From Gloeobacter violaceus PCC 7421 (GTDB lineage Bacteria > Cyanobacteriota > Cyanobacteriia > Gloeobacterales > Gloeobacteraceae), in NCBI RefSeq assembly GCF_000011385.1, contig NC_005125.1:2170001-2234000 (forward strand): a DNA stretch of 64,000 nucleotides. Direction: 5' to 3'. Below the pieces are notes generated by a model that had not been told where the DNA came from, searched no databases, and was given only the letters and a program-made list of their open reading frames with translations. The position numbers and the translations under genes are program-made. This document shows, piece by piece, positions 45,509-53,117 of this stretch. How positions within the stretch are numbered: the first letter of the stretch is position 1; every line of letters begins with the position of its first letter.

Positions 45509-47968
45509 ATGTTTGAAAGATTTACCGAGAAAGCAATCAAAGTGATCATGTTGGCCCAGGAGGAAGCCCGTCGCCTGGGACACAACTTTGTGGGTACCGA
45601 GCAAATCCTGCTCGGCCTCATCGGTGAGGGCACCGGCGTCGCCGCCAAGGTGCTCAAGTCCATGGGAGTCAACCTGAAGGACGCCCGCATCGAGGTCGAA
45701 AAAATCATCGGCCGCGGCTCCGGGTTTGTGGCGGTCGAAATTCCGTTTACGCCCCGGGCCAAGCGGGTGCTGGAGCTGTCGCTCGAAGAAGCACGCCAAC
45801 TTGGCCACAACTACATCGGCACCGAGCATTTGCTGCTGGGCCTCATCCGCGAGGGAGAAGGCGTCGCTGCCCGGGTGCTCGAGAATCTGGGAGTCGATCT
45901 GTCCAAGGTCCGCACCCAGGTCATCCGCATGCTGGGAGAGACCGCCGAGGTCTCCGCCGGGGGCAACACCGGCCGCACCAAGACCCCGACCCTGGACGAG
46001 TTCGGCTCCAATCTCACCCAGATGGCCGCCGAGGGCAAACTCGACCCAGTGGTGGGCCGCGAAAAAGAAATCGAACGGGTCATCCAGATCCTGGGTCGCC
46101 GCACCAAAAATAACCCCGTGCTCATCGGCGAACCGGGCGTGGGCAAGACGGCGATTGCCGAGGGCCTCGCCCAGCGCATCTCCAACAACGACATTCCCGA
46201 CATCCTGGCCGACAAGCGCGTCGTCACCCTCGACATTGGCTTGTTGGTAGCGGGCACCAAGTACCGCGGTGAATTCGAAGAGCGGCTCAAAAAGATCATG
46301 GACGAGATCCGTGCCGCCGGTAACGTCGTGCTGGTCATCGACGAGGTGCACACGCTCATCGGCGCCGGGGCTGCCGAGGGGGCCATCGACGCCGCCAACA
46401 TCCTCAAGCCGGCCCTCGCGCGCGGCGAGCTGCAGTGCATCGGGGCGACCACCCTCGATGAGTACCGCAAGCACATCGAGCGCGACGCCGCCCTCGAGCG
46501 CCGCTTCCAGCCGGTGATGGTGGGTGAGCCGACGGTCGATGAGACTATCGAGATCCTGCGCGGGTTGCGCGAGCGCTACGAGCAGCACCACAAGCTCAAG
46601 ATCACCGATGAGGCGCTCATCGCCGCCGCCCAGCTTTCCGATCGCTACATCTCCGATCGCTACTTGCCGGACAAGGCCATCGACCTGGTCGACGAGGCCG
46701 GTTCGCGCGTGCGGTTGCTCTCCTCGCAACTGCCCCCGGCGGCCAAGGAACTCGACAAAGAACTGCGCCAGATTCTCAAAGAAAAGGACGACGCCGTGCG
46801 CGGCCAGGACTACGAGCGGGCGGGCGAGTTGCGCGACCGCGAGATGGAAATCAAATCCCAGATTCGCTCGATTGCCCAGGCGCGCAAGTCCGAGACCGCC
46901 AACGAAGAGTCTCCCAACGTCACCGAAGAGGATATCGCCTACATCGTCTCGAGTTGGACGGGGGTGCCGGTCAGCAAGCTCACCGAGTCTGAGACCGAGA
47001 AGCTCCTGCACATGGAAGACGTGCTCCACCAGCGCCTCATCGGTCAAGAAGAAGCAGTCAAGGCCATCTCCCGGGCCATCCGCCGGGCGCGCGTCGGCCT
47101 CAAAAATCCGAAGCGGCCGATCGCGAGCTTCATCTTCAGCGGTCCCACCGGCGTCGGCAAGACCGAACTGGCCAAGTCGCTGGCGACCTACTTCTTCGGC
47201 TCCGAGGATGCGATGATCCGCCTCGACATGTCCGAGTACATGGAGCGGCACACGGTGAGCAAGCTCATCGGTTCGCCCCCCGGCTACGTGGGCTACAACG
47301 AGGGCGGTCAGCTCACTGAGGCGGTGCGCCGCCGTCCCTACACGGTGATCCTCTTCGACGAAATCGAGAAGGCCCACCCGGACGTGTTCAACGTGCTGCT
47401 GCAGATCCTCGAGGACGGTCGCCTCACCGATGCCAAGGGCCGCACGGTCGACTTCAAGAACACCTTGATGATCATGACCAGCAACGTCGGCTCCAAGGTG
47501 ATCGAAAAGGGCGGCGGCGGCCTCGGCTTCAACACCGCCGGCACCGAAGAGGAGCAGCGCTACAACCGCATCAGCGAACTGGTCAAAGAAGAACTCAAGC
47601 AGTACTTCCGCCCCGAGTTCCTCAATCGCCTCGACGAGATCATTGTCTTCCACCCGCTGACGCGCGAGGAAGTCAAGCAGATCGCCGTGATCATGCTGCG
47701 CGAGGTGTTCGCCCGCCTCGAAGAGCAGAACATGAAGATCGAGATTACCGACGCGTTCAACCGAAAGCTGATTGAAGAAGGCTACTCCGCCACCTACGGC
47801 GCCCGGCCGCTGCGCCGCGCCATCCAGCGCATGCTCGAAGACCAGCTGGCCGAAGAAATTCTGGCCGCCCGCCTTAAAGAGGGCGACACGGTCTTGGTCG
47901 ACGTCGATAGTGACGGCAAGCCGACCTTCATCGTCAAGGACCGCACCTTGGCCACCGCCGAAGGTTAA
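45509..47968 (+). CDS. clpC: ATP-dependent Clp protease ATP-binding subunit ClpC
   Basis: Hsp100 AAA+ unfoldase of 819 residues that feeds substrates to ClpP/R in cyanobacteria. It has two N-domain repeats ([17 protein letters not shown] to RVLENLG, about 1-140) and D1 Walker [10 protein letters not shown] with [10 protein letters not shown]. The UVR/M region is around 430 ([20 protein letters not shown]). D2 has Walker [10 protein letters not shown] and Walker [13 protein letters not shown], followed by the ClpP-binding loop region GGLGFN. Its N-domain is closely similar to that of the ClpN-Uma2 gene 2.7 kb downstream on the other strand. The gene is followed by a strong terminator. Confidence 0.98.
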
Positions 47969-48673: not shown

Positions 48674-49213
48674 ATGGATAATCAGCAACTCCTTCAGGCC
48701 ATCCGAACGGCCGACAGCGAACAGATCCGGCAATTGCTCGCCCAGGGCGCCTCTGCCAACGGCCAACCGGAACCGCTGCTGCTGTGGCTGCGCCCCCGAA
48801 CCTTACCGTTGGTCGAGGCGATCCGCAGCCGCAATGCAGCGATCGTGCGGCTGCTGTTGGAGGCGGGGGCCAACCCGAACGCGGCGGATCGCCAGGGGGT
48901 GTTGCCGCTCAAAGTCGCGATCTACCTGAGCGATGAGGAGATCGTCCGGCTGCTGCTGGTGCACGGAGCCGATCCGGAGAAGCGCGGCGGCGACGAGATT
49001 GCCAATGCGCTGCAGCAGGCCGCCTACGAGGGCAATCTCCAGATGGTGCGGTTGTTGCTGGAGCATGGGGCGGCTCCAGCGGCGGTCACCGCCCAGGACA
49101 AGACCGTCCTTGCGCGCCTGCGCGGCCCGGTGCTGCAACTGCTCATCGACGCAGGAGCGGAGGTGCCGCCGGAAATTCTGGCCATGCTGCGAGAAGGGTC
49201 GGCGCTTCCGTAA
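48674..49213 (+). CDS. ankyrin-repeat protein (tandem copy 1)
   Basis: A 179-residue protein made of about five ankyrin repeats. Typical units are LPLVEAIRSRNAAIVRLLLEAGANPNAADRQG, LPLKVAIYLSDEEIVRLLLVHGADPEKRGG and LQQAAYEGNLQMVRLLLEHGA. It ends in RGPVLQLLIDAGAEVPPEIL and the tail LREGSALP. It has no signal peptide. It is paralogous to the next gene. The ATG at 48674 is the first start. Protein-protein interaction is expected; the partner is unknown. Confidence 0.88.
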   Translation: MDNQQLLQAIRTADSEQIRQLLAQGASANGQPEPLLLWLRPRTLPLVEAIRSRNAAIVRLLLEAGANPNAADRQGVLPLKVAIYLSDEEIVRLLLVHGADPEKRGGDEIANALQQAAYEGNLQMVRLLLEHGAAPAAVTAQDKTVLARLRGPVLQLLIDAGAEVPPEILAMLREGSALP

Positions 49214-49397
49214 GGTGCCTCTCCCCAGGAACTCCCCGCTCCCCGGGTTCGGTCTTCAAGGTCGATGCCCTAAATAACTATGAAAAGCTTCCCTACAAAG
49301 GACAAATCTCTTGTCCGAAAGTGCGAGCGTGGGACACCCCTCAGGAGGTCTCTATGATCCCGGAAGAATCAGATCCATCCCGACGAACAGAAACCCG

Positions 49398-50252
49398 ATG
49401 GTTGATCAAAAACTGATTCTCGCCATACAGAGAGCTGAAATCGCGCAAATTCGGCGATTGCTCGCAGATGGGGTGTCACCCAATGGTCCTACAGTGGCCC
49501 CGTTGTTCGGCACCCGACCCCAGACATTGCCTTTGATCGAAGCCATTCGTTGTCGGCAAAAAGAGATCGTTCATCTGTTGCTCGAAGCGGGAGCAGACCC
49601 GCAGGCCTCCGAATATTCCGGGGCGACACCGCTTGCAATGGCAGTCCACCTGAATTTTCAGGAGGCGGTACAGTTTTTGCTCGCCAAAGGAGCGAACGCA
49701 GAAACCGATCGACATTTGCGCAGTCCGAACGCACTAGTGCAAGCGATCAGGATTGGCGACAGCCATGCGGTGCGTCGGCAGTTGGAGGATGGCGCATCTG
49801 CGGAAGGGCAGGCAGGTTTGCTCAAAGCGTTGGTGCGGCCGGAGGCGGTCCCTCTGGTCGAGGCGGTGCGCGGTGGGCAGCAAGAGATTGTGCGCCTGCT
49901 GCTTGAAGCGGGAGCCAATCCAAACGCGGCGGATAAACGCGGAGCCCTGCCTCTGAAGCTCGCAGTCCATCTGGGCAGCGAACCCATCGTCCGGCTACTT
50001 CTGGAGCACGGAGCCGATCCCAACAAACGCGCCAGTGGCGAGACCACCAGTGCGCTCCAGCACGCCGCCTTCTACGGACATGTCGAATTGGTGCGTGTGC
50101 TGCTGGAGCACGGCGGGAACCCCGCCGCGGTCCTGCAAACCAAGTCCCTGTTTCGCATTCGCGGGCCGATTTTGCAGATGCTCATCGACGCGGGCGGCGA
50201 AGCGCCGGAGGAGATTCTGCAGATGCTGCGCGAAGGTTCGGCTTTGCCGTAA
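49398..50252 (+). CDS. ankyrin-repeat protein (tandem copy 2)
   Basis: A 284-residue ankyrin protein. The internal phrases are close to copy 1: TLPLIEAIRCRQKEIVHLLLEAGAD, LPLKLAVHLGSEPIVRLLLEHGADPNKRASGE, and the ending RGPILQMLIDAGGEAPEEIL with LREGSALP. About seven or eight repeats are present, so copy 2 has internal duplication relative to copy 1 (compare EAVPLVEAVRGGQQEIVRLLLEAG with the earlier unit). The ATG at 49398 is in a good position relative to the first repeat. Confidence 0.88.
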   Translation: MVDQKLILAIQRAEIAQIRRLLADGVSPNGPTVAPLFGTRPQTLPLIEAIRCRQKEIVHLLLEAGADPQASEYSGATPLAMAVHLNFQEAVQFLLAKGANAETDRHLRSPNALVQAIRIGDSHAVRRQLEDGASAEGQAGLLKALVRPEAVPLVEAVRGGQQEIVRLLLEAGANPNAADKRGALPLKLAVHLGSEPIVRLLLEHGADPNKRASGETTSALQHAAFYGHVELVRVLLEHGGNPAAVLQTKSLFRIRGPILQMLIDAGGEAPEEILQMLREGSALP

Positions 50253-50654: not shown

Positions 50655-51647
50655 TCACGATTCCGATTGGGTTTCCGCCAGGGGAGGCCAGAATTCTGAG
50701 ATCGGTACTTCCCAGCCGGGAAAAAGTTCGTGTAATCTGAGCGTGTCCTGGCCTTGCAGAATTTGCCTATCGTCCTCCCCGCAATAAACAGAAACCGTCT
50801 GCAATTGGGGATCAAGCAACAGGCCAACCTTTACCCCATACTCCATCAAAATTTCCAGTCGCGTTTGCTTTGCGGAAGGCTCAGGGCCGCAGAGAACCAC
50901 AGCTGCCAGCTCGGGGATGACATCTTGAAAAGGGTGTTGATCAAGCTGACCGTGGCCAATAAAAGCGACGTTGGGAGTCAAAGTCAAGTAATCGTCCTCG
51001 TTGAGCACCAGTCGCAGGCTGGGCGAGTTAAGGACATGTCCCAGTCGGCGCGGTTCCACCCACCGGTAGAGAGCGGCGCTGAAGCGGGCAGCGACGATGG
51101 CCGCTACCGGTTCAACAAAGCGAAAGATTGGGTTACTCAGCTCTTCAATGAGGGGGCGAACCCGGCTCGCAGACGAAGAAAGTGTACGGGGCAAACTTGA
51201 TGGGGGTTCCGGAGATTGCTGGGCAGTGCTCCTGATTTGCTCCAGCAGCTGCGCAAGATTAACGCCCATATTTTCAAGAACGCGAGAAGCAACTCCTTCT
51301 CCCTCTTGCAGCAAGCCGATGAGCAGGTGTTCCGTACCGATATGGTTGTGCCCCAGGTAGCGCGCTTCTTGAAGCGATAGCTCCAGAACCCGCTTGGTCC
51401 GGGGGGTAAACGGAATCTCGACAGCGACAAACCCACTGCCGCGACCAATGATCTTTTCGACCTCGATGCGGGCACGCTTCAAGCTGACCCCCGCTGACTT
51501 GAGCACGTGAGCGGCGTTTCCGGTGCCTTCGCCAACAAGCGCGCAGAGGATTTGCTCGGTGCCCACAAAGTTGTGCCCCAGGCGACGGGCTTCCTCCTGG
51601 GCCAGCATGACCACTTTGATCGACTTCTCGGTAAACCGCTCGAACAT
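50655..51647 (-). CDS. ClpC N-domain / Uma2 (DUF820) fusion protein
   Basis: A 330-residue protein. Residues 1-137 are a ClpC double N-domain, strongly similar to the ClpC encoded nearby ([20 protein letters not shown] start; [39 protein letters not shown]). After a Ser/Pro linker, residues about 195-325 form a Uma2-type PD-(D/E)XK domain ending in [40 protein letters not shown] and [16 protein letters not shown]. The nuclease Asp of SPDVAF is Asn (TPNVAFI), and the VVEV/LSPS acidic residue is not visible ([11 protein letters not shown]). It starts 15 bases after the ATP-grasp gene, so it is likely co-translated with it. Confidence 0.85.
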
Positions 51648-51662: not shown

Positions 51663-53117
51663 TCAGGATTTGCCCAGTACCCAGGTGTCTTTGGAGCCGC
51701 CACCCTGGCTGGAATTGACCACCAGCGAGCCCGGGCGCAGGGCGACGCGGGTGAGGCCGCCGGGCAATACCCAGATGTCCTCGCCGTTGTTGAGGATATA
51801 GGGGCGCAGGTCGATGTGGCAGCCGTAAAGGTTGTGGTTGTCTTCGGAGTAAGTAGGGTGCCGGGAAAAATTGACGACCGGTTGGGCCAGATAGTTGCGT
51901 GGGTGGGCGCGTACCCGGCCGCGAAATTCTTCGACCTCGGCTTGGGTGGCCTTGGGGCCGATGAGCATGCCGTAGCCGCCGGAGTTGTCGGCCTCCTTGA
52001 CCACCAGCTCCTCCATGTGCTCGAGGATGTAGCTGCACTCGGAAGCATCTTCGGCCAGGTAAGTATCGACGTTCTTGAGGATAGCCTCCTCGCCCAGGTA
52101 ATAGCGGATGATCTCAGGAACGTACTTGTAAATCACCTTGTCGTCGGCGACACCGGTACCGACCGTATTGGCAAGCACGACGTTGCCGGCGCGGTAGGCG
52201 CGCATCAAGCCCGGCACGCCGAGCACCGAGTCTTTGCGAAAGACTTCCGGATCAAGATAATCGTCGTCGATGCGCCGGTAGATCACATCCACCGGCTGCA
52301 AGCCGTTCACGGTCTTGGCGAAGACACGGTCGTTTTCAACTACCAGGTCGCGGCCTTCGACCAACTCAGCACCCATCTGCAGGGCCAAAAAGGCGTGCTC
52401 GAAGTAGGCGGAGTTGTAGACGCCCGGGGTGAGCACCACCACCGTCGGGTCCGGCCGCGGCGAGACCCCCCGCAACGTTTGCAGCAGGCGCAACGGATAA
52501 TCGAGCACCGGACGCACCGGGTAGTTGGCGAAGATGAGCGGGAAGACCTGCTTCATGATCCGCCGGTTTTCGAGCACGTAGGAAACCCCCGAGGGCACCC
52601 GCAGGTTGTCCTCAAGCACCCGGTACTCGCCACCTCGGTCGCGAATCAGATCGGTACCGCAGATCTGTACGTAGGCATCTTTGGGCACCTTCATGCCCAT
52701 AAACTGGGGCCGAAACTGGCTGGCGCTCTCAATCAAATGCCTGGGCACGACCTTATCCAGCAGAATTTTCTGGCCGTTGTAGAGGTCTTTGAGAAACAAA
52801 TTCAGCGCCAACAGCCGCTGCTTGAGGCCGCTTTCTAAAACCTGCCATTCGGTATGGGGAATGATGCGCGGAATCAGATCAAAAGGAAAGATTTTCTCGG
52901 TACCCTCATCGGAGCCGTAGACCGCAAAGGTGATGCCGCGGGTCAAAAAGGCGATGCGCGCCTGGCGGGCGCGGTTGGCCAATTCCACCGGCCCGAAGCG
53001 ATCGAGAAATTCGGCTACGACTTTGTAGTGCTCGCGCGGCACGCCCGGCTCGCTGAACATCTCGTCGTAGAAGTCCCCGGGGACGTACTGCTGGAGCATG
53101 GTTGCCGATTCGGGCAT
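51663..53117 (-). CDS. circularly permuted ATP-grasp protein (DUF404/DUF407)
   Basis: A 484-residue protein of the CP_ATPgrasp family, a predicted ATP-dependent ligase of unknown product. Recognised phrases are [104 protein letters not shown], and [11 protein letters not shown] with the final [26 protein letters not shown]. The usual downstream alpha-E (DUF403) partner is absent; a ClpN-Uma2 gene follows at 15 bases instead. An in-frame ATG seven codons later (MLQQYVP) is another possible start. Confidence 0.92.

Follow-up and report, generated by a model that had tools for sequence, protein, structure and literature searches.

The window analysed here, a stretch of 64,000 nucleotides from Gloeobacter violaceus PCC 7421, encodes a protein in which a ClpC-type double N-domain is joined to a Uma2-type domain (Table 1). 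We refer to this protein as paralogue A, and to a second fusion encoded in the same genome (C1:2741673-2742722) as paralogue B. Both domains of paralogue A had been recognised in the original prediction, and profile and fold comparisons agree with it. In a Pfam search the protein matched Clp_N twice (3e-32) and Uma2 once (1e-10; score 41.8 bits, cut-off 27), and residues 1-138 show 81% identity to the genome's own ClpC N-domain in a gap-free alignment. The AlphaFold model (mean pLDDT 79) consists of two folded domains joined by a linker that is disordered. In Foldseek comparisons, residues 1-145 resembled ClpC N-domains such as that of plant ClpC1 (5gui, TM 0.94), and the C-terminal half resembled the Uma2-type structure 9y1l (probability 1.00, TM 0.74, E 1.4e-9), so that it matches Uma2 by fold as well as by profile. 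Unlike ClpC, the fusion carries its N-domain without AAA+ modules and would thus have no substrate unfolding or motor function. In having a Clp_N fold outside an AAA+ protein it resembles the plant ClpT1 and ClpT2 proteins, Clp_N-only components of the chloroplast protease, and ClpT2 (4y0c) was also matched by Foldseek; the identity in that structural match is only about 25%, however, and ClpT lacks Uma2. Pfam found no N-terminal HTH_3 domain in paralogue A, and none of the PADLOC defence-system models matched it.

Table 1. Features of the paralogue A locus (positions in the window).
Feature	Position	Strand	Remarks
clpC	45509..47968	+	819 aa; carries the Clp_N sequence nearest to that of paralogue A; Pfam, alignment; neighbourhood not conserved
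Clp_N2-Uma2 fusion gene (paralogue A)	50655..51647	-	330 aa; Pfam
Double Clp_N domain, residues 1-138	51234..51647	-	Pfam, ClpC alignment, AlphaFold/Foldseek
Disordered linker, residues 147-178	51114..51209	-	AlphaFold pLDDT < 50
Putative pseudo-Uma2 domain, residues 180-322	50682..51110	-	Covers Uma2 profile positions ~34-171 and lacks the N-terminal strands; Pfam, AlphaFold/Foldseek
Asn226 replacing metal-binding Asp	50970..50972	-	Alignment
Val250 replacing catalytic Glu	50898..50900	-	Alignment and AlphaFold model
Arg263 replacing conserved helix Lys	50859..50861	-	Alignment
Circularly permuted ATP-grasp gene	51663..53117	-	15 nt upstream of paralogue A, same strand

The close spacing to the ATP-grasp gene, which is also found in the relative G003, makes it probable that the two genes are co-transcribed. 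The pair does not represent an old operon, since unrelated genes occupy this place in G002, G004 and other genomes. The original prediction had drawn attention to clpC, 2.7 kb from paralogue A. This distance is correct for the source genome but is found there only: in G003 and in G001, the metagenome-assembled genome (MAG) of Aphanocapsa lilacina HA4352-LM1, the locus with its ATP-grasp neighbour adjoins an aminopeptidase gene, away from clpC. A functional linkage to the neighbouring clpC was therefore rejected, and linkage of the fusions to Clp genes is not conserved across genomes. Between clpC and paralogue A lie two adjacent genes for ankyrin-repeat proteins that are much alike in their repeats and endings (48674-49213 and 49311-50252).

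Paralogue A had been put forward as a single odd protein, and this part of the prediction has to be abandoned. Besides being one of two fusions in its genome, it has relatives in four more Gloeobacteraceae genomes, as paralogue B is present in the source genome (G000), G001, G002, G003 and G004, the last being the MAG Gloeobacterales ES-bin-313. Thirteen further Clp_N2-Uma2 proteins were found in cyanobacteria outside Gloeobacter, four with the fused Uma2 half as query against 390 cyanobacterial genomes and nine among 391 genomes belonging to a single order. Most of these carry an additional domain: in 12 of the 13 an N-terminal XRE-type helix-turn-helix (HTH_3) precedes the two Clp_N repeats and Uma2, an architecture that Pfam confirmed in three and that was assigned to the other nine by the same sequence pattern. 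A first class-wide search had missed these HTH-type fusions because its list was crowded by ClpC matches. No HTH was found in the thirteenth protein (from G366), in the G003 copy of paralogue A or in paralogue B. Since the same architecture recurs in independent assemblies of several genomes, a frameshift or assembly artefact, which had been named as a possible refutation, was rejected.

In a tree with 36 unfused relatives, the Uma2 halves of 21 fused sequences form one clade (support 96/93), within which the HTH type is one subclade and paralogue A, paralogue B and the G366 protein the other. Paralogue A, with its two Clp_N repeats and N-terminally truncated Uma2, thus belongs to a family of common descent. 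Fusions are known from 18 genomes in searches that sampled the phylum, and the true range is probably wider. A search of 84,980 species genomes, using a B-type alignment and two narrow patterns only, returned just the two known relatives of paralogue B and says little about range; a plasmid search returned no full-length relative. As the original prediction had supposed, no such fusion seems to have been described: a literature search, with most subscription journals outside its reach, found no paper naming both Clp_N and Uma2. We therefore regard Clp_N2-Uma2 as a previously unremarked cyanobacterial family.

Uma2 proteins (PF05685, COG4636, DUF820) are expanded in cyanobacteria, and Makarova et al. 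considered Uma2 to be a likely solo toxin and a predicted PD-(D/E)XK endonuclease (PMC2701414). The source genome alone, of 4.66 Mb, has 97 Uma2 matches, including an apparently split gene at C1:3609057-3609546. While the C-terminal half of paralogue A is like this family in fold and sequence, it differs from it in being truncated at its N-terminus, in lacking the catalytic residues and in being joined to Clp_N. The predicted change of the catalytic Asp to Asn (TPN226VAFI) and the absence of the acidic residue were both borne out by alignment to 53 unfused cyanobacterial Uma2 domains, of which 51 keep both Asp and Glu, two lack the Asp and none lacks the Glu. Asn226 stands at the metal-binding Asp, and Val250, which the AlphaFold model puts in the expected strand (247-251), stands at the position of the catalytic Glu. 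Leu252 and Arg263 stand at the ExK lysine and the helix lysine, respectively, so that Asp, Glu and Lys are all lost, and the first 30 or so Uma2 profile positions, comprising the ELxDG hairpin, are missing.

These losses are not peculiar to paralogue A. At least one catalytic residue is lost in all 20 full-length fusions, compared with 2 of the 53 unfused domains, although the counts are not independent as the fused domains share ancestry, and the initial Uma2 strands are missing in every fusion examined by Pfam. If catalysis were not needed, lesions would be predicted to differ between subclades, and they do: the HTH types have Arg, Lys, Gln, Leu or His in place of the Asp (12/12) but keep ExK, paralogue B and the G366 protein keep the Asp but have lost the Glu, and the G003 copy of paralogue A has His at the metal-binding position. 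The loss is less certain for paralogue B than for paralogue A, since Glu273 falls at the catalytic position in an alternative alignment. The idea of a non-catalytic fusion is thus strengthened, with the qualification that it describes a family and not a lone oddity beside clpC, a nearness that is not conserved. We infer that the fused Uma2 domains would lack nuclease activity.

Upstream of the HTH-type genes a further pattern was found. The palindrome GTAAAG-N4-CTTTAC occurs within 250 bp upstream of 10 of the 12 (with at most 2 mismatches), as a tandem pair spaced 20-22 bp apart in 8 of the 12, and it often reads CTTGACA over a -35-like hexamer. Dinucleotide shuffles gave 0.2 for the site and 0.02 for the tandem arrangement against the observed 10/12 and 8/12. 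These figures make the evidence look somewhat stronger than it is, since these very regions supplied the consensus and the twelve include four close relatives. The palindrome was found in none of 19 clpC upstream regions and none of 48 other flanks. In nine genomes, exact palindromes were mostly at the family's own gene, the others being about as frequent as matches to a reversed control pattern. Such a distribution is what would be expected of an autorepressor, and the palindromes at their own promoters suggest that the HTH-type genes are autoregulated. No such palindrome was found upstream of the paralogue A operon or of paralogue B.

Ligand-site positions in the Clp_N half were defined after studies of mycobacterial ClpC1 and ClpC2, in which F2, F80, K85 and E89 contact cyclic peptides (PMC10030653, PMC12913811, PMC12583610). 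Paralogue A keeps these four groove residues and also the phosphoarginine-pocket positions T6/E31 and T81/E106. In a permutation test, retention in paralogue A by itself did not exceed what its background identity to ClpC predicts (p 0.56), and retention across the family was marginal (p 0.04). Some HTH-type members have changes at E89, F80 or F2. Candidate ligands in the source genome are its three ClpS homologues. Clp_N repeats were also met in other settings: in cyanobacterium G011 a MerR-type regulator ends in two Clp_N repeats (L156:448-1713), and in a Tsukamurella plasmid protein (NZ_LR134450.1, L217:1498-2352), annotated just as a Clp N-domain protein, a Clp_N pair precedes a weakly matched glyoxalase/bleomycin-resistance-like domain. 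That Clp_N is joined to such different partners would fit a receptor role. In addition, the source genome encodes a stand-alone Clp_N pair of 148 residues with no other domain (C1:143.6 kb, L160:609-1052), and a 289-residue frame with four Clp_N matches in G005:C528 (L158), a genome with 8% contamination, is a possible tandem Clp_N protein.

By analogy, the closest working counterpart of the family would be mycobacterial ClpC2. This Clp_N protein is an autorepressor and a sponge for cyclomarin: once cyclomarin lifts the repression, ClpC2 is produced in large excess and takes the compound up (PMC10030653). Like the fusions, ClpC2 has a ClpC-like N-domain outside an AAA+ chaperone and joined to another domain; its groove residues F2, F80 and E89 are kept in paralogue A, and the own-promoter palindromes of the HTH types, often in tandem, have a parallel in ClpC2 of some actinobacteria. 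There are also differences. The partner domain of ClpC2 is a small dimerising four-helix bundle instead of Uma2, ClpC2 binds DNA without the HTH_3 domain of the HTH types, and paralogue A, unlike ClpC2, has neither an HTH nor an operator-like palindrome detectable upstream. The HTH-type members have the parts that the ClpC2 logic would call for.

We therefore propose, with a confidence just short of even, that the family senses or titrates ligands of the ClpC N-domain with a dead Uma2 domain as scaffold, paralogue A being an HTH-less decoy. The N-domain of the fusions would be a receptor for ClpC ligands (ClpS or other adaptors, parts of substrates, or peptides that target ClpC), and the Uma2 domain would probably serve in oligomerisation or binding and not in cutting. 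In the HTH types the receptor would be coupled to a DNA-binding domain repressing its own promoter, and ligand binding would lead to derepression and the production of a sponge for ClpC ligands. Paralogue A would most likely be the effector part alone, a soluble decoy titrating these ligands or, less probably, an adaptor passing the partner bound by its Uma2 domain on to ClpC, and both Gloeobacter paralogues would be sponges or adaptors lacking the switch. Ligand binding, repression and titration are predicted here from the two domains seen by Pfam and by fold, the family-wide catalytic loss, the single clade, the palindromes and the ClpC2 precedent. Against the proposal stand the lack of an HTH or palindrome for paralogue A, the groove changes in some HTH-type members, the loss of the Clp_N half in G001 (see below), the absence of conserved linkage to Clp genes and the unremarkable site retention in paralogue A.

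A rather unlikely alternative is that the fusions are adaptors. The pseudo-Uma2 would bind a client such as nucleic acid or a live Uma2 paralogue, and Clp_N would dock this client, directly or through adaptors already on ClpC, so that it is degraded or controlled. The roughly 97 Uma2 matches of the genome (about 95 paralogues) would provide potential partners, the disordered linker would allow tethering, and the genome encodes adaptors of the ClpS type, which bind Clp_N. Adaptors, however, generally bind a Clp_N domain and do not consist of one; moreover the HTH-type relatives point to regulation, and the interface with ClpC is putative.

We give a similarly low probability to the view that paralogue A is a drifting family member with little function left. 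Its locus is unstable. The gene is missing there in G002 and G004, which have other genes in its place, and in G001 the Clp_N half is missing while the Uma2 half remains, although an assembly fault is possible in this MAG. Between G000 and G003 (L051:3990-4988), dS for paralogue A is about 1.3, near saturation, against 0.14-0.22 for the ATP-grasp neighbour, clpC and paralogue B. The two copies are thus not simple orthologues, which suggests allelic replacement or the differential loss of old copies, and paralogue A may be a recent recapture of a ClpC N-domain, on which the Clp_N tree lacks resolution. On the other hand, dN/dS in this comparison, read with the near-saturated dS in mind, is 0.16 in Clp_N and 0.23 in Uma2, indicating past constraint on both halves; both folds are also predicted well, and paralogue B is kept throughout the five Gloeobacteraceae genomes. 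It is very unlikely that the fusions are active nucleases with unusual catalytic residues under Clp_N control of activity or stability, since even with Asp248 and Lys287 kept in paralogue B, where Glu273 might take the catalytic position, and the ExK pair kept in the HTH types, paralogue A has none of the three catalytic residues, the HTH types have no Asp and none of the fusions examined by Pfam has the first Uma2 strands.

Returning to the sensor and decoy proposal, its more specific form must be worded more cautiously. It is possible, though doubtful, that the cyanobacterial proteins combining an HTH, a ClpC-type N-domain and a pseudonuclease are one-component sensors of ClpC-targeting peptides or of ClpC overload that answer with a sponge, following the ClpC2 logic with different parts, and that the Gloeobacter proteins are HTH-less sponges. 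That an entire clade keeps a folded but apparently catalytically broken Uma2 domain bears on the role of the vastly expanded Uma2 family. The proposal would also extend the sensing or sponging of ClpC N-domain ligands, known in mycobacteria, to cyanobacteria, and it comes with a defined operator sequence as a prediction. Cyanobacteria are rich in bioactive peptides, and if the ligands are peptides that target ClpC, the Clp protease would seem to be the object of an arms race in this phylum.
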